Shown: positions 11,487-34,809 of the stretch, in pieces
How the letters are laid out: the number at the start of each line of letters is the position of its first letter
Numbering within the stretch: the stretch's first letter is position 1
Assembly (NCBI RefSeq): GCF_003254465.1
Contig: NZ_QDFI01000012.1
Coordinates: 1-64,000, forward strand
DNA length: 64,000 nt
Direction of reading: 5' to 3'
Origin: Meridianimarinicoccus zhengii
Lineage (GTDB): Bacteria; Pseudomonadota; Alphaproteobacteria; Rhodobacterales; Rhodobacteraceae
Notes under the pieces: generated by a model
What the model saw: the letters and a program-made list of their open reading frames with translations, nothing else
What the model was told of the DNA's origin: nothing
Database searches by the model: none
Translations under genes and position numbers: made by a program

Positions 11487-12368
11487 TCAGGCCGACAGTC
11501 CCTCCCGGTCGGTTGGTTTGCCCCTTGCGGGCGGTCGATGTGCCTTGCGCGGTGCGGATGCGGCAGCGGTTGCGGTCAGCGTGGCGACCACCTCGGCCAC
11601 CACGAACGCCGCGATGACGTCGGGCCGCTTGTCGTCGCTTCCACCCGCCCCGATGGGGCAGGTCAGGTCGTCGATGCCCAGCCCGTCGCACTGTGTATTG
11701 ACCCAGTTGCGGAATTTGGCGCGCTTGGTGGCCGACCCGATCATGCCGACATAGGCGGCATCCCCGCGTTCCAGCGCGGCCGAGGTCAGCAGGAAATCCA
11801 GCGCATGGTCATAGGTCAGCACGACGAAGGCGCTGCCCGCCGGGGCGCTCCAGATGTCGATCTCGGGAATGGCGCTGAGACGGGTTTCGACCGCAGCATC
11901 GCACAGCGCGATTTCCGCCGCACGCGTATCCACAAGGATACAGCGCACGGGCAGATGTTGCAGCAGCCGGGCCAGCGCCCGTCCGACATGCCCGGCCCCC
12001 ATGACGTATACATGGGGCCTGTCGTTGTCCTGCGCGTCCATTCGCTGGCGGGCCGCAGCCTTGTCGGACCCGCGCATCCGCGACAGCGACAGTTCCACGC
12101 GGCCACCGCAGCATTGCCCGATCTCGGGGCCAAGCGGCACGTCCATGTCCCGGTACAGCGCCCCGTCGCGCAGCATGTCGCGGGCGGCCTGCACCGCCAT
12201 GTGTTCAAGCTGCCCGCCGCCGATCGTGCCGAACAGACCGGTCGCCGAGACGTACATCTCGGCACCCGCGTCACGCGGCGACGAGCCACGCACGCGGGTC
12301 AGGGTCACGTGGATCGCGGCGTCGCTTGTCTCGAAGAACCGCGCCAGACCTGTGAGGGAGGGGTTCAT
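11487..12368 (-). CDS. xdhC: xanthine dehydrogenase accessory protein XdhC
   Basis: This 293-residue protein helps to load sulfurated molybdenum cofactor into xanthine dehydrogenase. The N-terminal part has the family block R-G-S-S-P-R-D-A-G-A-E-M and the G-T-I-G-G-G-Q-L-E-H motif near residues 46-55. The C-terminal part has a Rossmann-like V-M-G-A-G-H-V-G-R-A-L-A and the closing G-M-I-G-S-x-T-K-R-A-K-F block. I take the ATG at 12368, which follows the xdhB stop by four bases and has GGTGAGGCG just before it. An in-frame ATG at 12398 would overlap xdhB by 26 bases. The C-terminal tail is Arg/Lys/Pro-rich. Confidence 0.92.
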   Translation of the reverse strand: MNPSLTGLARFFETSDAAIHVTLTRVRGSSPRDAGAEMYVSATGLFGTIGGGQLEHMAVQAARDMLRDGALYRDMDVPLGPEIGQCCGGRVELSLSRMRGSDKAAARQRMDAQDNDRPHVYVMGAGHVGRALARLLQHLPVRCILVDTRAAEIALCDAAVETRLSAIPEIDIWSAPAGSAFVVLTYDHALDFLLTSAALERGDAAYVGMIGSATKRAKFRNWVNTQCDGLGIDDLTCPIGAGGSDDKRPDVIAAFVVAEVVATLTATAAASAPRKAHRPPARGKPTDREGLSA

Positions 12369-12372
12369 CGCC

Positions 12373-14691: not shown

Positions 14692-14710
14692 GGTCTCGCC
14701 CTTTCCAGTT

Positions 14711-16174
14711 TCACGCGGTTTCAAGCCGAACGGGCGCGGCGGTCGCCGTGTCCTGTTCCAGGTAGAAACGGCGCAGCAGGTTCTGCGCGCTCAGCATCCG
14801 GTACGCCGCCGACGCCCGCCAATCGCTGAGCGGTCTGAAATCCTGCTCCAGCGCCTTTGCGGCGGCGTCGAACGCGGCCTGCGACCAGACCTGTCCCTGC
14901 AACGCCTGTTCGGCTGCCGTGGCACGCTTGGGCGTGGCTGCCATGCCACCGAACGCGATCCGGCTGCGGGTGATGCGCCCTTCCGCGACGGTGACCTGGA
15001 TCCCGACCGCAACCGACGAGATATCTTCGTCCCGGCGCTTGGAGATCTTGTAGGCGGCGTTGCGGTCGTTCTGCGACGGGATCGGGATGCGGATCGTTTC
15101 GACGAACTCGCCGGCGGCGCGATCCTGCTTGCCGTACTCGATGAAGAAATCCTCCAGCGCGACCGTCCGGCGCACATCGCCGCGCCGCAGGACGATCTCG
15201 GCCTCGAGCGCAATCAGCACGGGCGGCGTGTCGCCGATGGGCGATCCGTTGGCGATGTTGCCGCCCACAGTACCCATGTTCCGCACCTGCCAGCCCGCGA
15301 TACGATCCCAGTAGCCCGTCAGGTGCGGCAGGTGTTCGGAAAGGGCGTCCTGGCAGTCGGTATAGCTCGCACCGGCGCCGATGGTCAGGACGTCCCCCTC
15401 CATGGCGATGGTCTTCAGCCTGTCGAGATGCCCGGTGAAGATGGCCGGGCCGATGTTGCGCAGGAACTTCGTCACCCACAGGCCGACATCGGTGGCCCCG
15501 GCGACGATGGTCGCGTCCGGATACGTCAGAAGGCACGCGGCCAGGTCATCGACGCTGGCGGGAAGAATGCTCAGGTTGTCCGCCGGGCCGGACACCACCC
15601 TCGCGTCGCTTTGCAACCGCTTGAGCCGCGCTGTCATGGCCGCCCGCTCGGTATTCAGATGGTCCGCGGCTGGCGTGCCGTAGCGGCTGACCGCGACCGC
15701 CGCGCGAACGATTGGCTCATAGCCGGTACAACGGCACAGGTTGCCCTGCAGCGCGGTTTCGACCTGCGCCGCGGTCGGTTCCGGTGTCTGCATCCACAGC
15801 GCGTAGAGCGACATGACGAAGCCCGGCGTGCAGAACCCGCACTGGCTGCCGTGATGGTCGATCATCGCCTGCTGCACCGGGTGCAGCCGCCCGTCCGGGC
15901 CGCTCAGATGCTCGACGGTCACAACATGGCATCCATCCACCGAGGCGAGGAAGCGGATGCAGGCATTGACCGGCGCATAGACAAGTCCATCCCCCGTCAG
16001 CCGCCCCACGAGAACCGTGCAGGCGCCGCAATCCCCCTCGGCGCAGCCTTCCTTGGTTCCGGTCAAGCGGCGGTTCAGCCGCAGGAAATCCAGCAGCGTC
16101 TGGCTGGCGGCGACGTCGGGGACGGATACGTCCGTGCCGTTGAGGATGAATCGGATCTCGGTGCGATATGTCAT
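14711..16174 (-). CDS. xdhA: xanthine dehydrogenase small (FeS/FAD) subunit
   Basis: This 487-residue subunit has the plant-type 2Fe-2S ligands in G-C-A-E-G-D-C-G-A-C-T-V-L (about residues 43-55). The second cluster follows with C-G-F-C-T-P-G and C-R-C-T-G-Y-E-P. An FAD-binding domain comes next, with N-M-G-T-V-G-G-N-I-A-N-G-S-P-I-G-D. It passes electrons from the XdhB molybdenum site to NAD+. The ATG at 16174 is preceded by a clear GGGAGGG ribosome-binding site; an upstream in-frame ATG at 16273 would add an unlikely extension and cover the putative regulator site. It is the first gene of the purine operon, divergent from a LysR-type gene. Confidence 0.96.
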   Translation of the reverse strand: MTYRTEIRFILNGTDVSVPDVAASQTLLDFLRLNRRLTGTKEGCAEGDCGACTVLVGRLTGDGLVYAPVNACIRFLASVDGCHVVTVEHLSGPDGRLHPVQQAMIDHHGSQCGFCTPGFVMSLYALWMQTPEPTAAQVETALQGNLCRCTGYEPIVRAAVAVSRYGTPAADHLNTERAAMTARLKRLQSDARVVSGPADNLSILPASVDDLAACLLTYPDATIVAGATDVGLWVTKFLRNIGPAIFTGHLDRLKTIAMEGDVLTIGAGASYTDCQDALSEHLPHLTGYWDRIAGWQVRNMGTVGGNIANGSPIGDTPPVLIALEAEIVLRRGDVRRTVALEDFFIEYGKQDRAAGEFVETIRIPIPSQNDRNAAYKISKRRDEDISSVAVGIQVTVAEGRITRSRIAFGGMAATPKRATAAEQALQGQVWSQAAFDAAAKALEQDFRPLSDWRASAAYRMLSAQNLLRRFYLEQDTATAAPVRLETA

Positions 16175-16225
16175 GGTGCCCTCCCGTGGTCCCGGAGCGC
16201 AGCGCCGGGCACCAGTTGACCCTAG

Positions 16226-16252
16226 GGCGATTGTTTGAGTCGAAAAATCGCC
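16226..16252. promoter_or_regulatory. Inverted repeat in the xdhA/LysR divergent promoter
   Basis: GGCGATT (16226-16232) and AATCGCC (16246-16252) are perfect 7-bp arms separated by 13 bases, and T-N11-A pairs typical of LysR sites are present inside (T32/A44, T31/A43 of the 16200 block). It lies 52 bases before xdhA and 89 bases before the LysR gene, where a LysR activator would bind to control both. Confidence 0.55.
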
Positions 16253-16340
16253 GTAACCGGCAAATACTTTCAACAGATCATTGAAAAACGCTCATCGCTG
16301 CCGCACTCTCAGGGTGTCCCCGAACGGCACGAGGAACCCC

Positions 16341-17330: not shown

Positions 17331-18248
17331 TCAACGCGGCGTATCCGTTCGACCCGACATGATCCGGGCAAGCCGGTCGGCATCCGGGAACGAAGGGACC
17401 GTGCCGAAGCCCCGAACGGTATGGGCGGCGGCAAGGGTGGCATTGGTCAGGGCGTTCTCGTCGATATCCGTGCCGCGCCGCAATGCCGAACCGACGGCCA
17501 CGGCCTCGAAACAGTCGCCCGCGCCGGTCACGTCCACGACATCGACAGGCCGGGCGGGCACATGCACGGTGCCGTCGCGACTGCCAAGCATCGCCCCCCC
17601 GGCGCCCAAGGTAAGGATGACCTGCTCCGCCCCAGACGCCCGCAACGCGGCTATGGCGGCCTTTCCGGACAAACCTGTCAGCCCGTGGGCTTCGGTTTCG
17701 TTGACAAAGAGCGCGGCCAGACCGGGGATGACCCTGGCAAACGCAGGGTCGAAAGGTGACGGGTTCAGAATGACCCGTGCCCCCCGCGCGCGCGCCGCCG
17801 CCACGATGTCGACGGTGACGTCAATGTCGAGATTGCCCTGAAGCAGAAGGGCATCGCCCGCCTGCATGTCCCCGACATGCGCGGCAACGTCATCGAATGT
17901 CAGGCTTCGGGCGCAGGCATTCGTGGTGACGATCACGTTCTCGCCGTTGTCCTGCGCAAGGATGATCGAGCGGTCGCTGGGGATGTCGTCGCGTTCGACC
18001 AGCGCCGTATCGACCGGTTCGCCTGACAGGGCAGCCCGGATCGCAGCGCCTTGCCAGTCCGTACCGACGGCCGCGACGAAGCGCGTGGGCACGCCCGTCC
18101 GCGACAGCGCGATGGCCTGGTTCGCCCCCTTGCCGCCCAGTCCGGCATGGCGCGCCTGCCCCAGGACCGACTCGCCCGCCGATGGCAGGGTCCGCACCCG
18201 GAGCACCTCGTCGATGGCGGCGTTCCCGAAGACGAATGCTCGGCGCAT
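17331..18248 (-). CDS. PfkB-family carbohydrate/nucleoside kinase (ribokinase-like)
   Basis: This 305-residue cytoplasmic kinase has the two PfkB signatures: G-G-K-G-A-N-Q-A at residues 38-45 and D-V-T-G-A-G-D-C-F ending near 247, with D245 as the likely catalytic base. F-V-N-E-T-E lies near 181-186. Ribokinase itself is the closest well-known relative, but PfkB members also phosphorylate nucleosides and other sugars. It diverges from the LacI-led transport operon across a promoter region that carries TAAA-N4-TTTA operators, so the regulator probably controls both. The substrate is therefore likely the imported ligand or a cleavage product of it. The symbol rbsK is not assigned because the neighbouring catabolic genes are not those of ribose. 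Confidence 0.85.
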   Translation of the reverse strand: MRRAFVFGNAAIDEVLRVRTLPSAGESVLGQARHAGLGGKGANQAIALSRTGVPTRFVAAVGTDWQGAAIRAALSGEPVDTALVERDDIPSDRSIILAQDNGENVIVTTNACARSLTFDDVAAHVGDMQAGDALLLQGNLDIDVTVDIVAAARARGARVILNPSPFDPAFARVIPGLAALFVNETEAHGLTGLSGKAAIAALRASGAEQVILTLGAGGAMLGSRDGTVHVPARPVDVVDVTGAGDCFEAVAVGSALRRGTDIDENALTNATLAAAHTVRGFGTVPSFPDADRLARIMSGRTDTPR

Positions 18249-18346
18249 CTGTTGCGTCCTTTCCTGTCAACGCGGCGGTTCGGACCATGCCGCTGCCTGA
18301 ATTTCGGGCAATAGCCCCCGATCTGGCAGTCCGGTCGACACATGGC

Positions 18347-18398
18347 TTGACCGACCTGCGCCGCTGCTTTAGTAAAGCGGTTTAGTAAATGCGTTTAC
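18347..18398 (+). promoter_or_regulatory. Promoter with two overlapping LacI-type operators
   Basis: A -35-like TTGACC (18347-18352) is followed after 17 bases by TAGTAA (18370-18375), a weak -10. Over and just after the -10 are two tandem palindromic units, TAAA-GCGG-TTTA (18373-18384) and TAAA-TGCG-TTTA (18386-18397); the second extends to GTAAA/TTTAC. The two centres are 13 bases apart. The LacI gene starts 30 bases downstream, which suggests autoregulation and control of the divergent kinase. Confidence 0.6.
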
Positions 18399-18427
18399 CT
18401 AAGCATCGTGCACTTGGGAAGGGGCGA

Positions 18428-19489
18428 ATGCCGGCAAGCCTGAAAGATGTCGCCCGAAAGGCGGGGCTGTCTCCGGCAACCGTGTCGCGGCACATGAACG
18501 GCACGCTCGAACTGCCCCCTGAAACGCGGGCGCGGATCGAACGCGCGGTGCGGCAACTCGGCTACCGGCCCAACCCCCACGCGCGGCGGCTGAGCCTCGG
18601 GCGGTCGGACACGATCACCCTGATCGTGCCGGACATCGCGAACCCGTTCTTCGCGACCCTCGCCGCGTCGGTCGAACGCACGGCATCGGAACGGGGGATG
18701 ATCGTGCAATTGCACGCCACCTCGAACGTGGAGGCGCGCGAGATCGCGCTGCTTGAACTCGCCACCGACAACCGTGCCGATGGCGTCGTGTTCTGCACCA
18801 ATCGCAGGCCCAGTCCCGATGTTGCCACGGCGATGGCCGCCCTGCCCCGTGTCGTCGTCGTGGACGAAGCGGTTCCCGGCGCGCGCGCCCCGCAGATCTA
18901 TGCGGACAACGCGCAGGGCGGTTACCTTGCGGGCCATCACCTCGCAGGATGGGGACACCGGCGCGTCGCCTATATGGGCGGCGGACAGGCGCTCATGTCC
19001 ACACGGCAGCGCGCGGAGGGGCTGGAACGCGGCCTGCGCGACGGCAGCGGCGGCGAGACGGTCGCCGTCAGGGTCATGTCAGGGCAGCACGATGTCGCGT
19101 CCGGACGCGCGCTTGCCACAGATCTGCTCGACGGGCGCGACAACGCGACGGCGATCTTCGTCGGCTCGGACGAAATCGCCATCGGCGTGATCGAAACCCT
19201 GCGCGCGCGGAACGTGCGCATCCCGCGCGACATGTCGCTCGTCAGTTTCGACGGGGCACGCGCGCTGCACCTTTACGACCCGCCGATCACGGCGGTGCGC
19301 CAGCCCGCGCAAAGACTGGGTGCGCGGGCGGTCGAGCTGCTGCTCGACGGCGACTGGAAGGATCAGGCCCTGCCGGACCTGGTCGAATACCTGCCGGTGG
19401 ACCTGATCGAACGCGCGTCCGTCGCGGCGCCGAACACGACAAGAAACGACCAACCAGAACCAGACCGACAGAGGAGTGTGACACCATGA
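18428..19489 (+). CDS. LacI family repressor
   Basis: This 353-residue regulator begins M-P-A-S-L-K-D-V-A-R-K-A-G-L-S, then P-A-T-V-S-R-H-M-N-G, a textbook LacI helix-turn-helix and hinge (L-G-Y-R-P-N-P-H-A-R). A periplasmic-binding-like sugar sensor domain follows, with I-V-P-D-I-A-N-P-F-F and D-G-V-V-F-C-T. The ATG at 18428 is chosen because GAAGGGGCGA lies just before it and the N-terminus is normal. The in-frame ATG at 18389 lies inside the palindromic operator and would add 13 basic residues. Its stop overlaps the next start (ATGA), so the regulator is the first gene of the transport operon it presumably represses. Confidence 0.9.
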   Translation: MPASLKDVARKAGLSPATVSRHMNGTLELPPETRARIERAVRQLGYRPNPHARRLSLGRSDTITLIVPDIANPFFATLAASVERTASERGMIVQLHATSNVEAREIALLELATDNRADGVVFCTNRRPSPDVATAMAALPRVVVVDEAVPGARAPQIYADNAQGGYLAGHHLAGWGHRRVAYMGGGQALMSTRQRAEGLERGLRDGSGGETVAVRVMSGQHDVASGRALATDLLDGRDNATAIFVGSDEIAIGVIETLRARNVRIPRDMSLVSFDGARALHLYDPPITAVRQPAQRLGARAVELLLDGDWKDQALPDLVEYLPVDLIERASVAAPNTTRNDQPEPDRQRSVTP

Positions 19490-20418
19490 AGACCGGACTG
19501 AAATCCGCCTTGCTCGCAACGGCGGCGACACTTGGGCTGACCGCGGGCGCGGCCGGGGCCGAGACCTTTGCGCTTGTGCAGATCAACCAGCAGGCGCTGT
19601 TCTTCAACCAGATGAACGCGGGCGCCACCGCCGCTGCCGAAGCGGCGGGCGACGAGCTGGTGATCTTCAATGCCAACAACGACCCGGCGGCACAGAACAG
19701 CGCGATCGAGACCTATATCGCGCAGGGCGTGGACGGGATCGTCGTGGTCGCCATCGACGTGAACGGGATCATGCCCGCCGTCCAGCAGGCCGCGGACGCC
19801 GGAATTCCCGTCGTCGCAGTGGACGCGGTGTTGCCCGACGGCCCCCATGCAGCGCAGGTCGGCGTGGACAATGTCGAAGCGGGCGGCATGATCGGCGACT
19901 ATTTCGTCGACTACGTGGCCAGTGACATGGGTGGCACGGCGACGCTGGGGATCGTCGGCGCGCTCAACTCCGCCATCCAGAATATCCGGCAGGACGGGTT
20001 CGAGGCCAGCATCGAAGGGGTGGACGGCATCACCGTCGCGGGCATCGTGGACGGCCAGAACGTGCAGGACGTGGCGCTTGGCGCGGCCGAGAACCTGATC
20101 ACGGCCAACCCGAACCTGAACGCGATCTATGCGACGGGCGAACCCGCGCTTCTCGGCGCCATCGCCGCCGTGGAAAGCCAGGGGCGCACCGGCGACATCA
20201 AGGTGTTCGGCTGGGATCTGACCGCGCAGGCGATCCGCGGCATCGACGCGGGCTACGTGGAGGCGGTGATCCAGCAGGACCCGGCCGAAATGGGCGCGAC
20301 CGCCGTGCGCATCCTGGACGATCTCGTCGGCGGCGGCAGCACGGAGGCGGTGGTCTCCGTTCCCGTGACCATCGTCACGACCGAGAATGTCGACGACTTC
20401 CGGAGCATCTTCGAGTGA
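19486..20418 (+). CDS. Ribose-type ABC transporter substrate-binding protein
   Basis: This 310-residue protein has a signal peptide ending G-A-A-G-A before E-T-F-A-L (about residue 25). The mature part has the RbsB-like layout: Q-M-N-A-G-A-T-A-A-A-E-A-A-G, then A-Q-N-S-A-I-E-T-Y-I-A-Q-G-V-D-G-I-V-V near residues 67-86, and Y-A-T-G-E-P-A-L-L-G-A near the end. It acts in the periplasm and delivers a sugar-like ligand to the permease at 21227. GAGGAG lies 9 bases before the ATG. The ligand is not known; family members bind pentoses, hexoses, inositols and autoinducer-2. It is the most direct handle for finding the substrate of this operon. Confidence 0.9.
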   Translation: MKTGLKSALLATAATLGLTAGAAGAETFALVQINQQALFFNQMNAGATAAAEAAGDELVIFNANNDPAAQNSAIETYIAQGVDGIVVVAIDVNGIMPAVQQAADAGIPVVAVDAVLPDGPHAAQVGVDNVEAGGMIGDYFVDYVASDMGGTATLGIVGALNSAIQNIRQDGFEASIEGVDGITVAGIVDGQNVQDVALGAAENLITANPNLNAIYATGEPALLGAIAAVESQGRTGDIKVFGWDLTAQAIRGIDAGYVEAVIQQDPAEMGATAVRILDDLVGGGSTEAVVSVPVTIVTTENVDDFRSIFE

Positions 20419-21230
20419 TGTCCACGCAATCGCAGCACGGCGCGATTGCCGGGCCGGGGGGCGTCATGCCCTCCGGTTCCGAGTCCGCGCCAGGCATGAC
20501 ACCGCGCATCAGCTTGCGCGGCATCCGCATGAGCTTCGGATCGATCGAGGCACTGCGCGGTGTCGATCTTGACGTGTATCCCGGCGAATGCGTGGGGCTG
20601 ATCGGCGACAACGCGGCGGGCAAGTCGACCCTGACGAAGATCATTTCCGGCACCTACGTCCCCGATGCAGGCACCATCGCGGTGGACGGCGAAGAGGTGC
20701 GTTTCGCCAACCCCGCCGATGCCCGCGCCCGCCACATCGAGATGGTGTTCCAGGACCTCAGCCTGTGCGACCATATCGACGTGATGGGCAACCTTTTTCT
20801 CGGCCGCGAGGTCGCGCGCTGGTCGTTCCTCGACCGTGCGACGATGAAGACCCGCGCCCGCGCCATGCTCGACGATCTCGACATCCGCATCCCGCGCCTG
20901 AACGCCCGCGTCGAAAAGCTGTCCGGCGGCCAGCGGCAGGCCATCGCCATTGCGCGCGCGGCGTCGTTCGATCCGCGGGTTCTCATCATGGACGAACCCA
21001 CATCCGCGCTCGCCGTGGCAGAGGTGGAGGCGGTGCTGCGCCTGATCAACACCCTGAAAGCGCGCGGTGTCGCCGTGATCCTCATCACCCACCGCCTTCA
21101 GGACCTGTTCGAGGTCTGCGACCGCATCGCCGTCATGTACGAAGGCACCAAGGTCGCCGAGCGCGCCATCGCCAAGACCAGCCTCGAGGATCTCGTGAAG
21201 CTGATCGTCGGCAAGGGGGAGGCGATATGA
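20418..21230 (+). CDS. ABC transporter ATP-binding protein (single-domain, sugar type)
   Basis: This 270-residue ATPase has Walker A G-D-N-A-A-G-K-S-T, signature L-S-G-G-Q-R-Q and Walker B V-L-I-M-D-E-P-T, then the T-S-A-L-A-V tail. Unlike RbsA it has only one ATPase domain, as in FrcA-like transporters, so it should act as a homodimer. The first 28 residues before P-R-I-S-L-R-G are a low-complexity lead. The ATG at 20418 shares its A with the previous stop codon; a GTG three bases earlier is also possible. It powers import through the permease that follows with an ATGA overlap. Confidence 0.93.
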   Translation: MSTQSQHGAIAGPGGVMPSGSESAPGMTPRISLRGIRMSFGSIEALRGVDLDVYPGECVGLIGDNAAGKSTLTKIISGTYVPDAGTIAVDGEEVRFANPADARARHIEMVFQDLSLCDHIDVMGNLFLGREVARWSFLDRATMKTRARAMLDDLDIRIPRLNARVEKLSGGQRQAIAIARAASFDPRVLIMDEPTSALAVAEVEAVLRLINTLKARGVAVILITHRLQDLFEVCDRIAVMYEGTKVAERAIAKTSLEDLVKLIVGKGEAI

Positions 21231-22240
21231 GCGTCCAGTACACCGAGCGCGGACAGGGATCCGCCATCGCCGATTTCCTGTCGGAGCATGCGCAGGTACT
21301 GTCCATCGCGGGCTTCTTCATCGTCTGCGTCGTGTTCTTTTCCGTCATGGCCAGCGCCTTCCTGACGCCGGTGAACCTGCTCAACATCTTGCGGCAGGCG
21401 GCGCCGATCCTGGTCGTCGCGGTGGCCATGACCTTCGTCATCATCACCGCGGGGATCGACCTGTCGGTCGGCTCGCAGGTGGCGCTCATCAACGCGGTGG
21501 CGGCAATCGCCCTGTCGGGCGGCTGGCTTCCCTGGCCGTTCGTGGTTCTGGCGATGCTGGCACTTGGCGCGCTGATCGGGCTGTTCCAGGGATGGTTCGT
21601 GGCGTATCAAGGCATTCCCGCCTTCATCGTCACGCTGGCGGGGCTGTCGATCCTGCGGGGCTTTGCGCTTTACCTGACACAGGGCTATTCCATCCCGATC
21701 CCCGACCTGCCGGGCTTTCTGTTTATCGGGCGCGGGCAGATCGGCGGCATTCCGTTCCCGGTGATCGTGTCGGTGGCCATCGCCGTACTTGGCACCGTCG
21801 TCCTGTCGCGCACCGTGTATGGCCGCCGCGTCGTCGCCACCGGCTCCAACACCGAGGCCGCGCGCCGCGCCGGGATGCCGGCGCGCGGGACCATCGCGTC
21901 GGTCTACATGCTGACGGGCATCGCCAGCGCCGTCGCGGGGCTTCTGATCGCGGCACGGCTCGGGTCCGGGTCCTCCAATGCCGCCGTGGGGTTCGAATTA
22001 CAGGTGATCGCGGCGGTGGTGCTGGGGGGCACGTCGCTGTTCGGCGGGCGGGGCACGATCCTCGGCACGCTGCTGGGGGCGCTGACCATCGCTGTCATCG
22101 GGAACGGCCTGATCCTCATGCATATCTCGCCCTTCTTCACGCAAATCGTCACCGGCACGATCATCCTGATCGCCATCTGGCTCAACACGCGGATCTTCAC
22201 CGCCAATTTCCGCTTCGGCGGCAAGCGCAGGAAGGGCTGA
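21227..22240 (+). CDS. Ribose-type ABC transporter permease
   Basis: This 337-residue membrane protein of the RbsC family has about nine or ten hydrophobic spans. The conserved blocks are V-I-I-T-A-G-I-D-L-S-V-G-S (around residues 75-87) and A-A-V-V-L-G-G-T-S-L-F-G-G-R-G-T near residues 265-280, the family's ATPase-contact and pore motifs. It overlaps the ATPase gene by ATGA and is followed two bases after its stop by the BtpA-like gene, so transporter and catabolic genes are one transcript. The C-terminus is basic (F-G-G-K-R-R-K-G). The assignment to the ribose/AraH class is firm; the sugar is unknown. Confidence 0.94.
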   Translation: MSVQYTERGQGSAIADFLSEHAQVLSIAGFFIVCVVFFSVMASAFLTPVNLLNILRQAAPILVVAVAMTFVIITAGIDLSVGSQVALINAVAAIALSGGWLPWPFVVLAMLALGALIGLFQGWFVAYQGIPAFIVTLAGLSILRGFALYLTQGYSIPIPDLPGFLFIGRGQIGGIPFPVIVSVAIAVLGTVVLSRTVYGRRVVATGSNTEAARRAGMPARGTIASVYMLTGIASAVAGLLIAARLGSGSSNAAVGFELQVIAAVVLGGTSLFGGRGTILGTLLGALTIAVIGNGLILMHISPFFTQIVTGTIILIAIWLNTRIFTANFRFGGKRRKG

Positions 22241-22242
22241 CC

Positions 22243-23088
22243 ATGGCGCAGATATCCGACCGCCCACAGAACGCCATCCGCGAGATTTTCGGGCGCGACA
22301 AGGCGCTGATCGGGATGATCCATTGCCCGCCCTTCCCCGGCGCGCCGCGCTATCGCGGCACGTCGCGGGACGACATCCTGTCCTTCTGCCTGCGCGATGC
22401 CGAACGGCTTGTCACGGGCGGGATGCACGGGCTGATCGTGGAAAACCACGGTGATATCCCGTTCTCCAAGCCTGACGATATCGGGCCGGAAACCTCGGCT
22501 TTCATGTCGGTCGTCGCCGACCGGATCGGGCGGGAATTCGGCGTGCCCATGGGGATCAACGTGCTGGCCAACGCGCCGATCCCGGCCTTCGCCATCGCCG
22601 CAGCGTCCGGCGCGGCCTTCATCCGCGTGAACCAGTGGGCCAACGCCTATGTCGCCAACGAGGGTTTCATGGAAGGCCGCGCCGCCGAGGCCCTGCGCTA
22701 CCGCGCCCAGTTGCGGGCCGAGGGCATCCGGGTGTTCGCCGACAGCCATGTGAAGCACGGCAGCCACGCGATCACCGCCGACCGCAGCGTGACCGAACTG
22801 ACCCGCGATCTGGCGTTCTTCGACGCGGACGCGGTGATCGCCACCGGCCAGCGCACGGGCGATAGCGCGGCGCTGGACGAGATCGACACGGTGTGCGCGG
22901 CAACCCATCTGCCCGTGCTCGTGGGCTCGGGCGTGACACCCGACAACATCGTGCCGATCCTCGAACGGGTGGATGCGGTGATCGTCGCCTCGTCGCTCAA
23001 GGAAGGCGGCGTCTGGTGGAACCCGGTGGAGGCCGCCCGTGTGAGCGCCTTCGTGAAGGCCGCGCAACCCGCGTTGGAGCAGCCATGA
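22243..23088 (+). CDS. BtpA/SgcQ family protein
   Basis: This 281-residue TIM-barrel-like protein has the BtpA family signature near the N-terminus, A-L-I-G-M-I-H-C-P-P-F-P-G (residues 21-33). Later come H-G-L-I-V-E-N-H-G-D-I-P-F, P-M-G-I-N-V-L-A-N and V-F-A-D-S-H-V-K-H-G. Members include SgcQ of the E. coli sgc locus and BtpA, once linked to photosystem I stability; they have been described as nucleosidase-like, but the reaction here is unknown. In this operon it follows the sugar-type permease directly and overlaps the TenA-like gene (ATGA), so it probably acts on the imported compound or its phosphate. A lyase or glycosidase role is inference only. Confidence 0.85.
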   Translation: MAQISDRPQNAIREIFGRDKALIGMIHCPPFPGAPRYRGTSRDDILSFCLRDAERLVTGGMHGLIVENHGDIPFSKPDDIGPETSAFMSVVADRIGREFGVPMGINVLANAPIPAFAIAAASGAAFIRVNQWANAYVANEGFMEGRAAEALRYRAQLRAEGIRVFADSHVKHGSHAITADRSVTELTRDLAFFDADAVIATGQRTGDSAALDEIDTVCAATHLPVLVGSGVTPDNIVPILERVDAVIVASSLKEGGVWWNPVEAARVSAFVKAAQPALEQP

Positions 23089-23735
23089 CCCGGATATCCG
23101 ACCGGATCCTGGCCGACAACGACGCGGTTCTGTCCCGGATGCTGGACCATCCCTTCGTGCGGCAGATCGCGGCGGGCACACTGCCCGTGCAGGGCTGGCA
23201 CCGCTATCTCGTCTACGAGGGCGCCTTCGTGGACACGGCGGTTTCGATCTTCGCCTATGCGACCGCCAAGGCACCCGACCTGCACAGCAAGCGCTGGCTG
23301 ATCGGGGTTCAGGATGCGCTGGTGCGCGACCAGATCCCCTATTTCGAGGACAGCTTCGCCACGCTGGGGATCGACCGCCACATAGCGATCCCACCATCGG
23401 TGCGCGCCTTCGACGACGGGATGCTCGCCATCGCGCGGGACGGCGATTTCGCAGATATCGTCACGGCGATGTTCGCCGCCGAGTGGATGTACTGGACATG
23501 GTGCAGCCGGGCCGCGGCCCATCCCATCGCGGACCCGCATATCCGCCGCTGGATCGACCTGCACGCGGATGACGGCTTCGCGGCGCAGGCACGGTGGCTG
23601 AAAGACACCATCGACCGGGTGGCAGCGCCCGCCGATCTGGCCCGCTTGAGCTCGATCTTCGGGCGGGTGACCGAACTGGAAATCGCCTTTCACGATGCGC
23701 CGCTGATCGGCATGACGGAGCCCTCCGATGCATGA
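23085..23735 (+). CDS. TenA family protein, Glu-type (TenA_E-like)
   Basis: This 216-residue all-helical protein is in the TenA/thiaminase II family, which hydrolyses amino-pyrimidines in thiamine salvage. By eye alignment, the position of the catalytic Cys (Cys135 in Bacillus TenA) is Glu here, in T-A-M-F-A-A-E-W-M-Y-W at E133, and the usual Q-D-Y is replaced by V-Y-E-G-A-F (E45). This places it nearer the TenA_E subgroup, which lacks the Cys. A conserved-type acidic residue remains near the end (E197/E199 in T-E-L-E-I-A-F). It overlaps BtpA upstream (ATGA) and the phosphotriesterase-like gene downstream by 8 bases. Activity on a thiamine breakdown product or a related C-N bonded compound is possible but unproven. 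Confidence 0.8.
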   Translation: MTRISDRILADNDAVLSRMLDHPFVRQIAAGTLPVQGWHRYLVYEGAFVDTAVSIFAYATAKAPDLHSKRWLIGVQDALVRDQIPYFEDSFATLGIDRHIAIPPSVRAFDDGMLAIARDGDFADIVTAMFAAEWMYWTWCSRAAAHPIADPHIRRWIDLHADDGFAAQARWLKDTIDRVAAPADLARLSSIFGRVTELEIAFHDAPLIGMTEPSDA

Positions 23736-24795
23736 CACCCCCAGCCCGACCGTCGCCACCGTGACCGGCCCGGTGCCGCGCGTCGCCCTTGGCGTCACGC
23801 TGATGCACGAGCATATCCTGAACGACTGCACCTGCTGGTGGCGCGGGCGGGACCCGGATTTCGCGTCGCCCATACGCGACCTGCCGGTCAGCGCGTCGAT
23901 CCTGTCGCAACTCAAGCATGACCCTTTCGCCAGCCGCGACAATTGCGGGCTGGACGACGAAGCGATGGCCGTGGCCGAACTGCTGAAGTTCCGGGCCGAA
24001 GGCGGTGGCACCGTGCTCGACCCAACGTGCCGCGGCATCGGCCGGTCGCCCGAAGCGCTGGTGCGGATCGCGCAGGCGACCGGGCTGAACATCGTGATGG
24101 GGTCGGGGTACTACCTGCACTCGTCCCACCCGCCGGAACTGGCCGCCATGACGGCCGAGGACATCGCGGCTGAACTGGTCCACGAACACCGCCGCGGGGT
24201 CGGGCCGGAGCATGTGCCCATCGGCATCATCGGCGAGATCGGCGTGAGCGCCGATTTCACGTCCGAAGAACGCAAGAGCCTGCGCGGCGCGGCCATCGCG
24301 GCGCTGGACACGGGCCTGCCGCTGATGATTCACCTGCCGGGCTGGGAACGGCTCGCGCATGACGTTCTGGACGCGGTCGCCGGCGAGGGACAGCCGCTCG
24401 ACCGGGTAATCCTGTGCCACATGAACCCGTCCTGGGACGATGGCGATTACCAGCGGTCGCTGGCCGACCGGGGTGCCTTCCTTGAATACGACATGATCGG
24501 GATGGACTACTGGTACGACGACCAGCAGGTGCAATGCCCGTCCGACGCCGATTGTGCTGCGGCCATCGCGGCGCTGGCGCGCGGCGGGTATCTCGACCGT
24601 TTGCTGCTGTCGCAGGACGTGTTCCTGAAGATGATGCTGACCGCGTTCGGCGGCAACGGCTACGCCCATGTGCAGCGCCACTTCCTGCCCCGGCTTCTGC
24701 GGGCCGGGCTGAGCGAGGCCGATCTCGACCGGCTCATGATCGCCAATCCCGCCGCCGCCCTGTGCGCCTATACAACACCGGAGACGACACCATGA
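23728..24795 (+). CDS. Phosphotriesterase-homology amidohydrolase
   Basis: This 355-residue TIM-barrel hydrolase keeps a full set of metal ligands: H27 and H29 (M-H-E-H-I), E170 (G-I-I-G-E-I-G), H202 (M-I-H-L), H231 (L-C-H-M) and D297 (L-S-Q-D). A bridging Glu in place of the carboxylated Lys is typical of Php-type proteins rather than true phosphotriesterases. Relatives act on lactones or N-acyl or phosphate esters. Here it sits between the TenA-like and GATase-like genes of the LacI operon, so it probably opens a ring or removes an ester or amide group from a pathway intermediate. Unlike organophosphate hydrolases it has no signal peptide and should be cytoplasmic. Confidence 0.88.
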   Translation: MHDTPSPTVATVTGPVPRVALGVTLMHEHILNDCTCWWRGRDPDFASPIRDLPVSASILSQLKHDPFASRDNCGLDDEAMAVAELLKFRAEGGGTVLDPTCRGIGRSPEALVRIAQATGLNIVMGSGYYLHSSHPPELAAMTAEDIAAELVHEHRRGVGPEHVPIGIIGEIGVSADFTSEERKSLRGAAIAALDTGLPLMIHLPGWERLAHDVLDAVAGEGQPLDRVILCHMNPSWDDGDYQRSLADRGAFLEYDMIGMDYWYDDQQVQCPSDADCAAAIAALARGGYLDRLLLSQDVFLKMMLTAFGGNGYAHVQRHFLPRLLRAGLSEADLDRLMIANPAAALCAYTTPETTP

Positions 24796-25556
24796 CGAAA
24801 CTGCTTCTCGTGGGCGAAAGCTGGGTCAGCGCCGCGACCCATTACAAGGGCTTCGACCAGTTCGGCAGCACGACCTTCCACACCGGCGCGGACCGCTTCG
24901 TCGAAGGCATGGCCCGTGCGGGCATCGACGTGACCTACATGAAGGCCCACGAGGCGGCGGAGGCATTCCCCTATACCGCCGAAGACCTGTCCGCGTGGGA
25001 CGTGGTGATGCTGTCGGATATCGGGGCGAACACGCTGCTGCTGCCGCCAGCGGTCTGGCTGCGCGGAGAGCGTGTACCCAACCGGCTGAAAGCGATCGAG
25101 GCTTACGTGCGCGGCGGCGGCGGGCTAATCATGGTCGGCGGCTACCTGACCTTTCAGGGCATCGACGGGCGCGGGCGCTGGCACCGCACCCCGGTCGAAT
25201 CCGCGCTGCCCGTGACCTGCCTGCCCGTGGACGACCGGGTCGAATTGCCCGAGGGCGCGGTGCCCGAGGTGGTGACACCCGGCCATCCGATCCTGTCCGG
25301 CGTCCCGTCCGACTGGCCCTACCTGCTGGGCGTGAACGAGATCGTGCCGAAGGCCGAGGGCGCGGAGGTCGTGCTGCGCCTGCCCGCGGATCAAGGCGGC
25401 CTGCCGCTGCTCGTCACGGGTCAGCACGGCGCGGGCCGGTCGGTCGCATGGGCGTCCGACATGAGCGAACACTGGCTGCCGAAACCGTTCCTCGACTGGC
25501 CGGGCTATGACGCGCTGTTTGCCAACATGGTCCGCTGGGCCGCCGACGGGACCTGA
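24792..25556 (+). CDS. GATase-like protein (DUF1355/PF07090-type)
   Basis: This 254-residue protein resembles the putative glutamine-amidotransferase-like family PF07090. Features are the start K-L-L-L-V-G-E-S-W-V, W-D-V-V-M-L-S-D-I-G-A-N-T around residues 68-81, a Gly-rich nucleophile-elbow region G-G-G-L-I-M-V-G-G-Y-L-T-F-Q-G near 115-130, and a C-terminal A-W-A-S-D-M-S-E-H-W. I see no Cys in the elbow position, so classical glutaminase chemistry is doubtful. It is the last gene of the LacI-led operon and overlaps the previous gene by ATGA. Function unknown; a structural or carbohydrate-modifying role, as in ThuA-like proteins, is an alternative. Confidence 0.65.
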   Translation: MTKLLLVGESWVSAATHYKGFDQFGSTTFHTGADRFVEGMARAGIDVTYMKAHEAAEAFPYTAEDLSAWDVVMLSDIGANTLLLPPAVWLRGERVPNRLKAIEAYVRGGGGLIMVGGYLTFQGIDGRGRWHRTPVESALPVTCLPVDDRVELPEGAVPEVVTPGHPILSGVPSDWPYLLGVNEIVPKAEGAEVVLRLPADQGGLPLLVTGQHGAGRSVAWASDMSEHWLPKPFLDWPGYDALFANMVRWAADGT

Positions 25557-25630: not shown

Positions 25631-25726
25631 GTGTCATCGGCGGTGCCGGTGACGGCGGCACTGGACACAGGGCACGGCGCTGGTAATGTCACAGGACACA
25701 TGGCTTGAAGAGCCAAAGGCAACCGC
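25631..25726 (+). promoter_or_regulatory. Structured leader upstream of amiC
   Basis: Upstream of the terminator are several nested hairpins: GTGTC (25631-25635) with GACAC (25664-25668) enclosing GTGCCG/CGGCAC (25643-25648 and 25656-25661), then TGTC/GACA (25687-25690 and 25695-25698), then TGGCT/AGCCA (25701-25705 and 25711-25715). Such a row of stem-loops before a terminator suggests an RNA leader that AmiR-like ANTAR proteins could bind. A clean A1/G4 hexaloop pair was not found. Confidence 0.45.
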
Positions 25727-25768
25727 GCCCCGTCCGACCTCCCCGCAGGAGGTCACGGGGCTTTTTTT
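25727..25768 (+). terminator. Intrinsic terminator (attenuator) directly before amiC
   Basis: A strong hairpin has its outer stem GCCCCGT (25727-25733) pairing with ACGGGGC (25755-25761) and its inner stem GACCTCC (25736-25742) pairing with GGAGGTC (25748-25754). It is followed by seven T residues (25762-25768). It stands 17 bases before the amiC start codon and after the end of the previous operon, at a point where a terminator would switch amiC-amiR and everything downstream unless antitermination occurs. Confidence 0.8.
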
Positions 25769-25785
25769 ATGGACCCGTCCCGGCG

Positions 25786-26919
25786 ATGACCTTGCGACTT
25801 GGCCTCATGTTCTCGACGACCGGCAGTTACGCGGCGCTCGGGCAAAGCGCGCTGGCGGGTGCGCTCGGCGCGATCGAGGCGCTTGGACAGCGCCATGGCC
25901 ATGTCATCGCACCCGTGGTGGCGGATCCGGGCGGGGACATCGCCGCCTATGACCGGATCGCGCGGGGCCTGCTGGAAAGCGGCGTGCGCCATATCGTCGG
26001 CGCGATCACGTCGTCTAGCCGGAAGGAGCTGATCCCCCTGCTGGAACGCTATGGCGGCCTGCTGTGGTATCCCTGCCCCTATGAAGGGTTCGAAAGCAAC
26101 GATCACGTCGTCTATCTGGGTGCCTCGCCCAATCATCATGTCGTGCCCGTCGCCGACTGGATCGCGGCGCAGGGGCTGCGGCAGGTCTATCTTGTCGGGT
26201 CAAACTATGTCTGGGGCTGGGAAACGCTGCGGCTGGCGCGCGAATGTCTCGTGGCACGCGGGCTCGACATCGTGGGCGAAAGATTCGTGCCGCTTGGTGC
26301 GGTGACGCCGGACCACATCATCGATGAAATCGCGGAACAGCGGGCGGATTGCGTCGTGGACAGCCTGATCGGGCCCTCCAATGTCAGCCTGCTGCGCGGG
26401 CTCGACGCCCGCAGGACATCGGGCGCCGACCCCGTGCAGGTCGTGAGCTTCAATCAGACCGAGGCGGATCTGGACGACATCGGGACCGCGGCGAACGGGT
26501 TACTGGCGGCGGGCAGCTTCTTCGAACCCGACGCCGGTGACGATCTCCGTACCGCGGCCCGGCGCCATGCGCCGAACGGGCGGGTGTCGTCATTCATGGC
26601 CACGTCCCACGCCGCCGTGGAAATCCTGTTCGCAGCCGCGCAGCAGGCCGGGACGGACGATCCCGCAGCCGTGTTCCGGGCGGCGACCGCGGCGCCGGTC
26701 CCCACCGTCATGGGCGATATCGCCATCGATCCGGTTCTGCGGCACGCGATGCTGACCCCGAAACTGTCCATCGCCGAACAGGGCCGGTTCAGGATCGTGC
26801 AGCGCGCCGACGGCCCGATCCCTGCCGACCCTTACATGACCGGCCAGCCGCCAACCCCCACCCGCGCCAGCCCCGACCCGTGGCCCAACCCGAGGCCCAA
26901 TCTGAGGATCGTCTCATGA
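25786..26919 (+). CDS. amiC: AmiC-like ligand sensor (amide/urea-type binding protein fold)
   Basis: This 377-residue protein has the AmiC/UrtA type-1 periplasmic-binding fold (L-G-L-M-F-S-T-T-G-S-Y-A at the start, G-A-I-T-S-S-S-R-K near residues 70-78, S-N-Y-V-W-G-W-E near 146-153) but no signal peptide. It should therefore stay in the cytoplasm, like Pseudomonas AmiC, which holds the antiterminator AmiR inactive until an amide binds. The amiR-like gene follows with an ATGA overlap, and an intrinsic terminator stands just before this gene. The ATG at 25786 begins the fold directly; an upstream in-frame TTG at 25705 would translate through the terminator. The C-terminal 40 residues are Pro-rich. 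The ligand may not be an aliphatic amide. Confidence 0.85.
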   Translation: MTLRLGLMFSTTGSYAALGQSALAGALGAIEALGQRHGHVIAPVVADPGGDIAAYDRIARGLLESGVRHIVGAITSSSRKELIPLLERYGGLLWYPCPYEGFESNDHVVYLGASPNHHVVPVADWIAAQGLRQVYLVGSNYVWGWETLRLARECLVARGLDIVGERFVPLGAVTPDHIIDEIAEQRADCVVDSLIGPSNVSLLRGLDARRTSGADPVQVVSFNQTEADLDDIGTAANGLLAAGSFFEPDAGDDLRTAARRHAPNGRVSSFMATSHAAVEILFAAAQQAGTDDPAAVFRAATAAPVPTVMGDIAIDPVLRHAMLTPKLSIAEQGRFRIVQRADGPIPADPYMTGQPPTPTRASPDPWPNPRPNLRIVS

Positions 26920-27506
26920 GAAGCGCGCCGATACACAATTTCCGCGGAAACACAGCGATCGTCCTCGTGCGCTCGCCCGAGATCGGTGCGCGGATCAAGG
27001 ACCGCTGCGACCGGCTGGGCGTAAAATCGCATGTCCGGAGCACGGATCTGGACAGCGACACGGCTGCCATCGCGGATATCCTCGTGATCGACATCGATAC
27101 CGCCGACGATGCCATGCTGCCATGGCCGCGCGGGGCAGCGCCGGTGCCGGTGATCGGGCTGATCGGGTCGGAAAGCCCCGGGCGGCTGGCCTGGGCGCTG
27201 GCACAGGAGATCGACGCCTTCCTGCCGGTCGCCGGACTTGGCAACCTGTTCTCGGCTATGGTGATCGCGCACGAGATTTTTGCCCGGAAGGCGGATCGCG
27301 CGGCCCGCGATGCGGAACAGGCCCGCCGCCGCGGCGGGCGGCTCGACGTGATCCGCGCCGTGCTGTCGCTGATGCAGGACGGGCGGGACGAGGCGCTCGC
27401 GCTGAAACAGTTGCGCGCCATGGCCATGGTCGAACAGATCAGCCTCGAAGAGGCCGCCGTGAAGTTGCTGCACGACCGGGGACTCGCCGGGGGCAAGCGG
27501 GCATGA
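26916..27506 (+). CDS. amiR: AmiR-like ANTAR antiterminator
   Basis: This 196-residue protein has a degenerate response-regulator-like N-terminal half (V-R-S-P-E-I-G-A-R, then I-L-V-I-D-I-D-T) without the usual phosphoacceptor set. A coiled-coil linker rich in Arg and Ala follows, then a C-terminal ANTAR domain from about residue 140 (R-A-V-L-S-L-M-Q-D-G through S-L-E-E-A-A-V-K-L-L). ANTAR proteins bind nascent RNA and prevent terminator formation. Its overlap with amiC, and a terminator just upstream of the pair, fit the AmiC/AmiR scheme, with the downstream transporter and formamidase genes as targets. The start at 26916 is set by the ATGA overlap. Confidence 0.85.
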   Translation: MRSAPIHNFRGNTAIVLVRSPEIGARIKDRCDRLGVKSHVRSTDLDSDTAAIADILVIDIDTADDAMLPWPRGAAPVPVIGLIGSESPGRLAWALAQEIDAFLPVAGLGNLFSAMVIAHEIFARKADRAARDAEQARRRGGRLDVIRAVLSLMQDGRDEALALKQLRAMAMVEQISLEEAAVKLLHDRGLAGGKRA

Positions 27507-28399
27507 GCGTGGCTGAGGCCTTTCGCCCGCGGCAGCGGGGGCGCGTGCGCGCGGTCCTGCTGGAACTGCTGCGGCGGCCCCGTGCGGCCTTCGGGCTTGC
27601 CGTGATCGCGCTTATGGTCGTCTGCGCGGTGTTCGCGCCCTGGATCATGCCGCACGACCCCTTCGCGCAAAGCTTCGACGGGCTCGATCTGATGGGCGGG
27701 CCGCTGCCGCCGGGCGGCGCCTACCCGCTGGGCACCGATCTTCTGGGCCGGGATCTCGCGTCGCGCCTGATCCTCGGCACGCGCACGTCGCTCATCATCG
27801 GGGTGGTGGCGAACGGCACGGCGGTGATCCTCGGCGCAGGCGTCGGCATCGCGGCGGGGTATTTCGGCGGCTGGACCGCGGCGATCCTGATGCGCTTCAC
27901 CGACCTGATGATGGCCTTCCCGGCGCTGCTGCTGGCGATCGTGCTGGCGGCAATCTTCCAGCCCAGCCTGATGATCGTCGCGCTGGTGATCGCCATGGTC
28001 AACTGGGTGCAAATGAGCCGCGTGATCTATACCGAAACCCGCAGTCTGGCCGAGCGGGAATTCATCCAGGTCCAGCGCGCCATCGGCTCGTCCCCCCTGC
28101 GCATTCTCGGCAAGCACATCCTGCCGCATCTTCTGTCGTCGATCATCGTGTTCGGCACGCTTGGCATTTCCACCACCGTCCTGCTGGAGGCGACACTGAG
28201 CTTCCTTGGCGTGGGCGTGCAGCCGCCGATGCCGAGCTGGGGCAACATCATCTTCGAGAACCAGACCTATTTCTCCACCGCGCCGTGGCTGGTGTTCTTT
28301 CCGGGCCTGCTGATCGTGCTGCTGGCGCTGGCTTTCAACCTTGTGGGCGACGCGCTGCGCGATGTCCTCGACCCGACGCTGAAGGGACGCCACGGATGA
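27503..28399 (+). CDS. Dpp/Opp-type ABC transporter permease (DppC-like)
   Basis: This 298-residue membrane protein has an N-terminal cytoplasmic stretch, one span near residues 30-50, then the D-P-F-A-Q and Y-P-L-G-T-D-L-L-G-R-D motif typical of DppC/OppC. Four or five more spans carry the E-A-A-like loop E-F-I-Q-V-Q-R-A-I-G-S-S. It pairs with the DppB-like protein encoded next (ATGA overlap). It imports peptides, nickel-type chelates or other small compounds; the presence of a formamidase suggests an amide-containing ligand. Confidence 0.92.
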   Translation: MSVAEAFRPRQRGRVRAVLLELLRRPRAAFGLAVIALMVVCAVFAPWIMPHDPFAQSFDGLDLMGGPLPPGGAYPLGTDLLGRDLASRLILGTRTSLIIGVVANGTAVILGAGVGIAAGYFGGWTAAILMRFTDLMMAFPALLLAIVLAAIFQPSLMIVALVIAMVNWVQMSRVIYTETRSLAEREFIQVQRAIGSSPLRILGKHILPHLLSSIIVFGTLGISTTVLLEATLSFLGVGVQPPMPSWGNIIFENQTYFSTAPWLVFFPGLLIVLLALAFNLVGDALRDVLDPTLKGRHG

Positions 28400-29316
28400 G
28401 CGGCTATCTGGTCCGGCGCCTGGTCGAAAGCGCGCTGATCCTGCTGGGGATCACCTTCGTCACCTTCGTGCTGCTCTACCTGCTGCCGGCCGATCCCGCG
28501 CGCCAGATCGCCGGACGGTCGGCCACGGCGGAAACCGTCGCCAGTATCCGCGACCAGCTCGGGCTGAACGATCCGCTCCTGCTGCAGTATGTCCGCTATC
28601 TCGGGAACCTGCTCCAGGGCGACATGGGCCGGTCCTATCTTCAGCGGGCGGAGGTGGCCGACCTGATCGCGTCGCGCCTGCCCGCGTCGCTGCTGCTGAT
28701 GGTGTCCGCCATCGTGACCGAACTGATCCTCGGTCTCACCATCGGCGTCATCGCCGCCCTGCGCCGCAACCGTCCCGCGGATCACGGGTTGATGATCTTC
28801 AGCTTCGTGTCGATCTCGGCCCCGCAATTCGTGATCGGCATCCTGCTGCTCTATGTCTTCGCCGTGCAGCTGGGGTGGTTCCCCATCGGCGGCTACGGCA
28901 CCTTCGCGCACCTCGTGCTGCCGTCGATCACGCTCGGGTTTCTTGGCGCGGGCTGGTACAGCCGCATGATGCGGTCGTCCATGATCGACGTGCTGGGGCA
29001 GGATTTCGTGCGCACGGCCCGCGCCAAGGGCCTGTCGAAGCTGCGCATCATCACCCGACACGTGATGCCCAACGCGATCCTGCCGATCATCGCCATGATC
29101 GGCATCGACATCGGGCTGTTCATGTCGGGCATCGTCGTCGTCGAATCCGTCTTCGGCTGGCCCGGGATCGGCCAGCTTGCGTGGCAGGCGATCCAGCGCG
29201 TGGATATTCCCGTCATCATGGGCGTCACGCTGGTGTCGGCCACGGCCATCGTGCTCGGCAACCTGATCGCCGATCTCGTGGCACCGCTCATCGATCCCCG
29301 CATCAAGACCAAATGA
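28396..29316 (+). CDS. Dpp/Opp-type ABC transporter permease (DppB-like)
   Basis: This 306-residue membrane protein starts M-S-G-Y-L-V-R-R-L-V-E, as DppB/OppB do, and has six predicted spans. The coupling loop is D-F-V-R-T-A-R-A-K-G-L-S near residues 205-216, followed by the R-H-V-M-P-N-A and G-I-G-Q-L blocks. The C-terminus L-I-D-P-R-I-K is normal for the family. It overlaps DppC by ATGA and is followed after 23 bases by the binding-protein gene, whose GAGGAG site lies in the gap. Together with DppC it forms the channel of the amiCR-linked transporter. Confidence 0.93.
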   Translation: MSGYLVRRLVESALILLGITFVTFVLLYLLPADPARQIAGRSATAETVASIRDQLGLNDPLLLQYVRYLGNLLQGDMGRSYLQRAEVADLIASRLPASLLLMVSAIVTELILGLTIGVIAALRRNRPADHGLMIFSFVSISAPQFVIGILLLYVFAVQLGWFPIGGYGTFAHLVLPSITLGFLGAGWYSRMMRSSMIDVLGQDFVRTARAKGLSKLRIITRHVMPNAILPIIAMIGIDIGLFMSGIVVVESVFGWPGIGQLAWQAIQRVDIPVIMGVTLVSATAIVLGNLIADLVAPLIDPRIKTK

Positions 29317-29339
29317 AAACCGACAGAGGAGAAAGACAC

Positions 29340-30977: not shown

Positions 30978-30980
30978 ACG

Positions 30981-34807: not shown

Positions 34808-34809
34808 GT

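Follow-up and report, generated by a model that had tools for sequence, protein, structure and literature searches.

Introduction

The described systems closest to the locus reported here each share part of its gene content. The ribose (rbs) operon has, like it, a CUT2-type importer, a ribokinase-like kinase and a LacI-type regulator; our locus differs in carrying four further enzymes and in falling below the profile cut-offs for the rbs proteins. The sgc operon of Escherichia coli also holds a BtpA/SgcQ-family member, but combines it with sugar-phosphate-generating transport by a phosphotransferase system and is not known to contain a TenA, phosphotriesterase (PTE) homologue or PF07090 protein. 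For the Salmonella cluster rikA-STM3548-STM3549-STM3550, the authors of a 2026 paper suggested that it may form a pathway whose substrate is not known (PMC13432705). This cluster unites a PfkB kinase, a PF07090 protein and a PTE homologue, as our locus does, but its transporter is of the DMT type, and neither BtpA nor TenA appears in the part of that paper available to us.

Here we describe a nine-gene locus in a 64,000-nucleotide stretch (the window) of Meridianimarinicoccus zhengii, positions 1 to 64,000 of contig NZ_QDFI01000012.1. The nine-gene set is common to many soil, plant-associated and marine bacteria, and in five genomes of one family URC4 takes the place of its BtpA and TenA genes. 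We tentatively propose, with somewhat less than even confidence, that the operon is induced to import and degrade an N-riboside whose aglycone is a ureide or an amide. In our search of open-licence PMC papers we found neither the nine-gene operon, nor the exchange of BtpA and TenA for URC4, nor a substrate described, and no known reaction for BtpA/SgcQ or PF07090. The initial annotation of this DNA had supposed that the catabolic module might be undescribed, and apart from the remark on the smaller Salmonella cluster we indeed found no account of it in that literature. The overall kind, a sugar-type importer-kinase operon, is known; the pathway inside it is probably new.

Organization of the locus

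Pfam and NCBIfam profile searches assigned eight plus-strand genes from LacI to the GATase-like protein (18428-25556) and a divergent PfkB gene, with an operator between them:

17331-18248, minus strand: PfkB-family (ribokinase-like) kinase, 305 aa (PF00294, E 5.9e-43; GAGD motif)
18385-18398, no strand: LacI-type palindromic operator GTAAATGCGTTTAC between the divergent genes, sole genome copy
18428-19489, plus strand: LacI/GalR-family regulator, 353 aa (PF00356 and periplasmic-binding domains)
19486-20418, plus strand: CUT2-type sugar-binding protein (SBP) of the ABC importer (PF13407; best PDB relative 5hsg, E 1.1e-118)
20415-21230, plus strand: CUT2-type ABC ATPase, single domain (PF00005)
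21227-22240, plus strand: CUT2-type permease (PF02653)
22243-23088, plus strand: BtpA/SgcQ-family protein, predicted TIM barrel of the phosphate-binding type (PF03437, 223 bits)
23085-23735, plus strand: TenA-family protein without the thiaminase Cys (PF03070; best fold match 1rtw)
23728-24795, plus strand: COG1735-type PTE homologue (PF02126; best PDB relative 3k2g, E 1.1e-126)
24792-25556, plus strand: GATase1_like PF07090 protein without a nucleophile Cys (PF07090, 352 bits; PDB relatives 2gk3 and 3soz)

Every family that the initial annotation had named was found in its place. The run, which it described as ATGA-coupled, has seven junctions: five 4-base overlaps, an 8-base overlap between TenA and PTE, and a 2-base gap between permease and BtpA. 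Its count of six genes is too low, because lacI overlaps the SBP gene and the co-oriented run therefore comprises eight.

The operator motif GTAAANNNNTTTAC has a single match in the whole 4.6 Mb genome, the GTAAATGCGTTTAC site. This palindrome is shared between the divergent starts, in agreement with the earlier claim that the kinase is controlled from the same operator region. Among 67 loci with a LacI relative (window included, 1.37 Mb in all), the motif lies upstream of lacI in 45, at a distance of 46-86 bases from where the lacI start was extrapolated to be, and its exact form was not found before lacI in 22; elsewhere in the same 1.37 Mb it occurs in 11 copies, or about 0.002 per 270 bases. 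Since the operator is unique in the genome and kept before lacI in 45 of 67 loci, both arms, the eight-gene run and the kinase, are very probably under one LacI-type regulator. The PfkB gene lies downstream on the same strand in the two rhizobial plasmid copies that were read.

Conservation of the gene set

We compared 79 named loci, taken with the GATase-like gene as anchor and one genome per species; these are the best 79 of 467 relatives, and the sample therefore leans to near relatives. All nine genes are present in 40 of the 79 (BtpA in 57, PTE in 55, TenA in 46 and PfkB in 59), so the set is conserved beyond this strain, contrary to the outcome that would have refuted the reading of the initial annotation. 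The gene order differs in the copies on two plasmids of rhizobia and one of Paracoccus, and Pantoea has the set with extra M20 genes; in Rhizobium johnstonii 3841 the operon comprises RL_RS26925 to RL_RS26965. Roseivivax keeps BtpA, TenA, kinases and importer together, with a GATase-like gene 9 kb off. In G515, a genome of another family, the two halves of the set (L215 and L245) lie unlinked on two contigs.

Even draws of 398 genomes from the phylum and 149 from the family gave 28 strong PF07090 regions that were read, from 15 other phylum-draw genomes and 12 family-draw genomes, 2 of the 28 matches being fragmentary. The majority of PF07090 matches in these surveys were weak and lay in proteins of about 700 aa, and were set aside; the unnamed and named locus sets may overlap in species. 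PTE was present in 13 of the 28 regions, and these 13 held BtpA in 11, a kinase in 11 and TenA in 6. A comparison set of 36 URC4 or BtpA regions, which is not neutral and comes in part from operon-carrying genomes, held a kinase in 3, TenA in 2 and an ArgE/DapE-type M20 gene in 1, and PTE, GATase-like and HyuC-type genes in none.

Replacement of BtpA and TenA by URC4

Among 72 regions with both GATase-like and PTE genes, 64 had BtpA, 5 had URC4, none had both and 3 had neither. The first of the five URC4-type loci is that of Taklimakanibacter lacteus (L042), whose order is LacI-SBP-ATPase-permease-PTE-GATase-PfkB, followed by URC4/DUF1688 overlapping the kinase gene. In five genomes of one family (L042, L285, L286, L287 and L289), the gene that immediately follows PfkB is URC4; the loci other than L042 were found through a URC4 search, so that their number is no frequency. 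The five operons keep the LacI, SBP, ATPase, permease, PTE and GATase-like genes, and neither BtpA nor TenA was found in their regions. They are identical to the window at 22 SBP, 13 PTE and 18 GATase-like positions, mostly chosen as conserved. TenA is absent genome-wide from four of the five.

Within the L042 family, URC4 occurs in 10 of 69 genomes, five times in the canonical cluster and five times (L042 included) at the operon end. The operon URC4s form one group in the tree (100/96), and 33 polar columns are invariant across these and 28 canonical URC4s. In the class as a whole, where 24 genomes gave a match and 20 regions were read, UPP accompanies URC4 in 20 and URC1 in 19, and three plasmid copies have both; neither URC1 nor UPP was found in the five operon regions. 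A genome search found no URC4 in the window's own genome, and the locus does not belong to the URC1-URC4-UPP type. According to the part available to us of a metabolic-model paper, the yeast uracil pathway employs the URC4 product to convert ribosylurea into urea (PMC7530994). Our locus resembles the URC pathway in that URC4 can take the operon position of BtpA and TenA in one bacterial family, and differs from it in that its substrate would be imported rather than derived from uracil.

Kinase and binding protein

The kinase, SBP and regulator all miss the NCBIfam equivalog cut-offs of the ribose proteins: 198 of the required 299.65 bits for the kinase (ribokinase, its best-scoring models), 110 of 337 for the SBP (RbsB) and 203 of 382 for the regulator (RbsR). 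We compared the SBP by sequence alignment at fourteen positions that we take to be the ribose contacts of RbsB. Six (F15, F16, D89, R141, D215 and Q235) are kept in all 55 aligned rows, and eight (N13, N64, R90, S103, I132, F164, N190 and F214) are replaced in the window and in nearly all or all of the 55. Because six contacts are kept and eight changed, the ligand seems likely to be ribose-like with something different, and plain ribose is unlikely.

By Pfam, the window kinase consists of a PfkB domain only and has no helix-turn-helix (HTH), unlike the RikA type, in which the kinase frame includes a DeoR-like HTH. An E. coli plasmid encodes a kinase of the RikA type, with a DeoR-like HTH ahead of PfkB (L006, 101-1315). 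The available part of the RikA paper mentions the DeoR-like domain and prefers a start at Met90 (PMC13432705). Kinases of this kind are fused to two different DNA-binding domains, the DeoR-like HTH and a LacI-HTH, and we take this as a sign that RikA has a genuine N-terminal part. The PTE homologue of the same E. coli plasmid lies in two separate pieces (L006, 3127-4150) and is probably broken.

PTE homologue and GATase-like protein

The PTE homologue belongs to its family by PF02126 (188.8 bits) and matches the phospho-furanose lactonase model weakly, at 42 of 630 bits. The six putative metal ligands that the initial annotation had named (H27, H29, E170, H202, H231 and D297) are all present and at least 97% conserved across 55 sequences. 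Mammalian PTER, an N-acetyltaurine amidase, likewise has 3k2g as its top PDB fold match, as given in the part available of PMC11374699. Since PTER shares this match, amide hydrolysis is within the reach of the fold. The homologue is a probable binuclear-metal amide, ester or lactone hydrolase.

The GATase-like protein matches PF07090 at 352 bits against a threshold of 27. Its GGYxxF motif, taken by eye as the nucleophile elbow, carries Tyr118, so the nucleophile Cys of class I GATases is missing at this presumed elbow, as the initial annotation had surmised. Of the close relatives, 80 of 80 keep C143, the sole Cys of the protein, and in an alignment that was read only 5 of 9 diverse ones do; E9, S10, D76, D223 and H227 are fixed. 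Two loci (L059 and L038) hold two PF07090 genes each, which suggests paralogues for two ligands.

BtpA and TenA

BtpA passes both family cut-offs (TIGR00259, 210.8 bits against 153.4; PF03437, 223 against 30) and falls below the photosystem I biogenesis BtpA equivalog NF045918 (191.5 of 400 bits). Its AlphaFold2 model is a TIM barrel with a predicted local distance difference test score of 80.8, whose fold neighbours include HisF, OMPDC, HPS and ThiE (Z 17.7-20.1); the fold search pointed to the general phosphate-barrel group and to no single enzyme, and no PDB sequence relative was found at E up to 1. BtpA scored above cut-off in 15 of 289 genomes of a class draw and is not tied to the operon; besides the window's own, BLAST found one BtpA of 51% identity, the rest being at 25-31%. 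We scanned 14 BtpA neighbourhoods, 6 of which were dropped for want of a called BtpA reading frame. In all seven called loci with distant BtpAs (25-30% identical), a sugar-kinase gene of one family lies at most two genes away. Pfam assigned the four members of it that were scanned to FGGY; PfkB is the kinase in the eighth called locus, that of the 51% identical BtpA. These kinase genes therefore support an action of BtpA on a phosphorylated sugar.

TenA belongs to its superfamily by profile (PF03070, 61.6 bits against 22) and falls below the thiaminase II cut-off of NCBIfam (53.4 of 130 bits). Its best fold match is the TenA homologue 1rtw (Z 28.6 over 205 residues, root-mean-square deviation 1.5), and UndA and CADD also match at Z 22-23, which makes a diiron oxidase a candidate reading. 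In the alignment, paired by eye, Ala132 stands in place of the catalytic Cys of BsTenA, presumably Cys135, and Glu133 adjoins it.

Companion genes and related clusters

An M20 hydrolase of the HyuC/allantoate type occurs in 22 of the 79 loci, with or without TenA, and in 27 of 107 regions over both sets, 19 of the 27 with TenA. A second cluster type has a LacI-PfkB fusion kinase (18/79) and an ArgE/DapE-type M20 gene (17/79), along with a GATase-like gene and a different importer of the CUT2 type. The two types adjoin each other in L038, L052, L076 and also L107, where the second is cut short. An amidase, a CN-hydrolase of the nitrilase family and a creatininase are found near the GATase-like gene in one region each, and cytidine deaminase in two regions of the window's own family. 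A third context contains NAMPT/NAPRTase, luciferase-type monooxygenase, aldehyde dehydrogenase, HAD, GATase-like, PfkB and phosphoribosyl pyrophosphate (PRPP) synthase genes, in one region of the window's family (L237, 3855-12233) and on Rhodococcus pN1 (L008, 8339-18463; monooxygenase, aldehyde dehydrogenase and HAD as annotated). Such a cluster would ribosylate a heterocycle, open its ring and recover the ribose, and no paper on such a set was found in the literature listing searched. The common ground of the GATase-like contexts is N-bound ribose with C-N hydrolysis.

Neighboring genes in the window

Directly upstream of the operon (8434-16273) lies a guanine-to-urate block of guanine deaminase, a 533-aa protein, XdhC, XdhB and XdhA; the 533-aa protein has no Pfam match and by eye resembles a purine permease. 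A purine link was rejected, as this adjacency is not kept: across 117 loci XdhA matched in 2 and the neighbouring LysR gene in 7, and guanine deaminase, permease, XdhC and XdhB queries matched in none. After the operon (25705-38491) follow a UrtA/AmiC-like binding protein, a small downstream frame without a Pfam or NCBIfam match, and ABC genes of the dipeptide type; the UrtA/AmiC-like protein and the small frame likewise had no matches in the 117 loci. A type VI secretion block (ImpA, VipA, VipB, ImpE, a ClpV-like AAA protein and an FHA protein) occupies 40342-55727.

Discussion

From the gene content, linkage, operator, conserved residues and gene replacement described above, we infer a substrate, an order of steps and products. 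In the presence of the ligand or of one of its products, LacI would leave the single operator, and the CUT2 importer, judged by its families, would take the compound in; ribosylurea, an acyl-ribosylurea or a compound of the opened-pyrimidine type are candidate ligands. The PTE homologue, and probably also the GATase-like protein, would hydrolyse an amide, lactam or ester of the aglycone, as their folds and fixed residues suggest. PfkB would phosphorylate the ribose, with the distantly related RikA as a parallel, and BtpA and TenA would then split the 5-phosphoriboside, releasing ribose 5-phosphate and, as the other product, urea, ammonia or a carbamoyl compound. In the five genomes where URC4 has replaced these two genes, it may do the same job, and the HyuC-type M20 hydrolases near many copies could complete the breakdown of the aglycone. 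That every enzyme of the operon acts on the imported ligand, as had been suggested, is plausible. Of the two substrates first guessed at, a phosphorylated N-glycoside stands as the best guess, and a thiamine-related compound is disfavoured by the TenA evidence. A broader version is slightly more doubtful than the proposal for this operon: that N-ribosyl ureides and amides from the environment are broken down by a widespread, undescribed pathway, that BtpA with TenA and the unrelated URC4 replace one another on compounds like 5-phosphoribosylurea, and that PF07090 proteins take part in the breakdown of N-ribosides in general, acting also in the route that ribosylates, opens and recycles.

Several observations weigh against this proposal. 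TenA is missing from 13 of the 64 regions with GATase-like, PTE and BtpA genes (8 of the 13 carry an M20 gene of one of the two types and 5 none), so TenA is not always needed. One genome (G615) has PTE and GATase-like genes with neither BtpA nor URC4, and another region (L056) also lacks both. As far as the tree shows, URC4 was recruited once, in one bacterial family, and the exchange therefore counts as one event. The five URC4-type genomes each hold a 27-30% identical BtpA elsewhere, three of them also a 49% identical one, and one has TenA. The ribosylurea role of URC4 is known to us only from the metabolic-model paper cited above, and since URC4 goes with UPP in 23 of 23 and with URC1 in 22 of 23 other regions, its exact substrate may be another intermediate. 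RikA accepts and phosphorylates free ribose, as stated in the available part of its description (PMC13432705). Finally, on Ti plasmid pTiK224 the neighbours of the GATase-like gene carry the annotations hydantoinase/oxoprolinase, SIS-domain protein and fructoselysine 6-kinase.

The pTiK224 context would suit a ligand of another kind, an Amadori compound or other ketose-amine or a sugar-amide conjugate, with an FrlD-like PfkB and with BtpA and TenA splitting a phosphorylated sugar-amine; amide hydrolases of the M20 and PTE types would also suit sugar-amide conjugates. We regard such a ligand as unlikely: PfkB scores best against ribokinase models, the contexts with URC4, cytidine deaminase and NAMPT/PRPP synthase indicate ribosides, and by Pfam, in a scan of the window's nine genes and not of the 79 loci, no SIS-type deglycase was found.

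A modified nucleoside from damage or turnover of RNA or DNA, such as a hydantoin, formamidopyrimidine or carbamoyl-type compound, would be a narrower form of the N-riboside proposal. Creatininase and cytidine deaminase adjoin GATase-like genes, and the hydantoinase/carbamoylase family to which the recurrent HyuC-type enzymes belong would fit such bases, but Pfam and NCBIfam recognise no base-specific enzyme in the operon itself, and we consider this version rather improbable. It is more improbable still that the operon serves a rare pentose or sugar lactone, with PTE as a lactonase, the kinase and BtpA as sugar-phosphate enzymes, and TenA and the rest as accessories: the weak lactonase match, the RbsB-like SBP and the FGGY-type kinases beside distant BtpAs are in keeping with it, and the recurrent C-N hydrolases and URC4 are left unexplained by it. 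Salvage of thiamin or an aminopyrimidine centred on TenA is very improbable, for although the TenA fold also matches Arabidopsis At3g16990 (2f2g, Z 27.1) and a thiaminase-homologue product complex (2gm8, Z 28.3), the thiaminase II score is low, the catalytic place holds no Cys, none of the other eight genes is a thiamin gene, and TenA is missing from the 13 regions and the four URC4-type genomes noted above; in the five URC4-type operons it gives way, together with BtpA, to URC4.

If the broader version is true, it would provide the first substrates for BtpA/SgcQ, for PF07090 and for this group of TenA proteins. The exchange for URC4, taken with the C-N hydrolases that related clusters have recruited, leads to a short list of testable compounds, namely N-ribosyl ureas, hydantoins and amides. 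If the N-riboside proposal is true, such compounds would be a source of nitrogen and carbon for rhizobia and marine Rhodobacterales that the papers we found do not describe.

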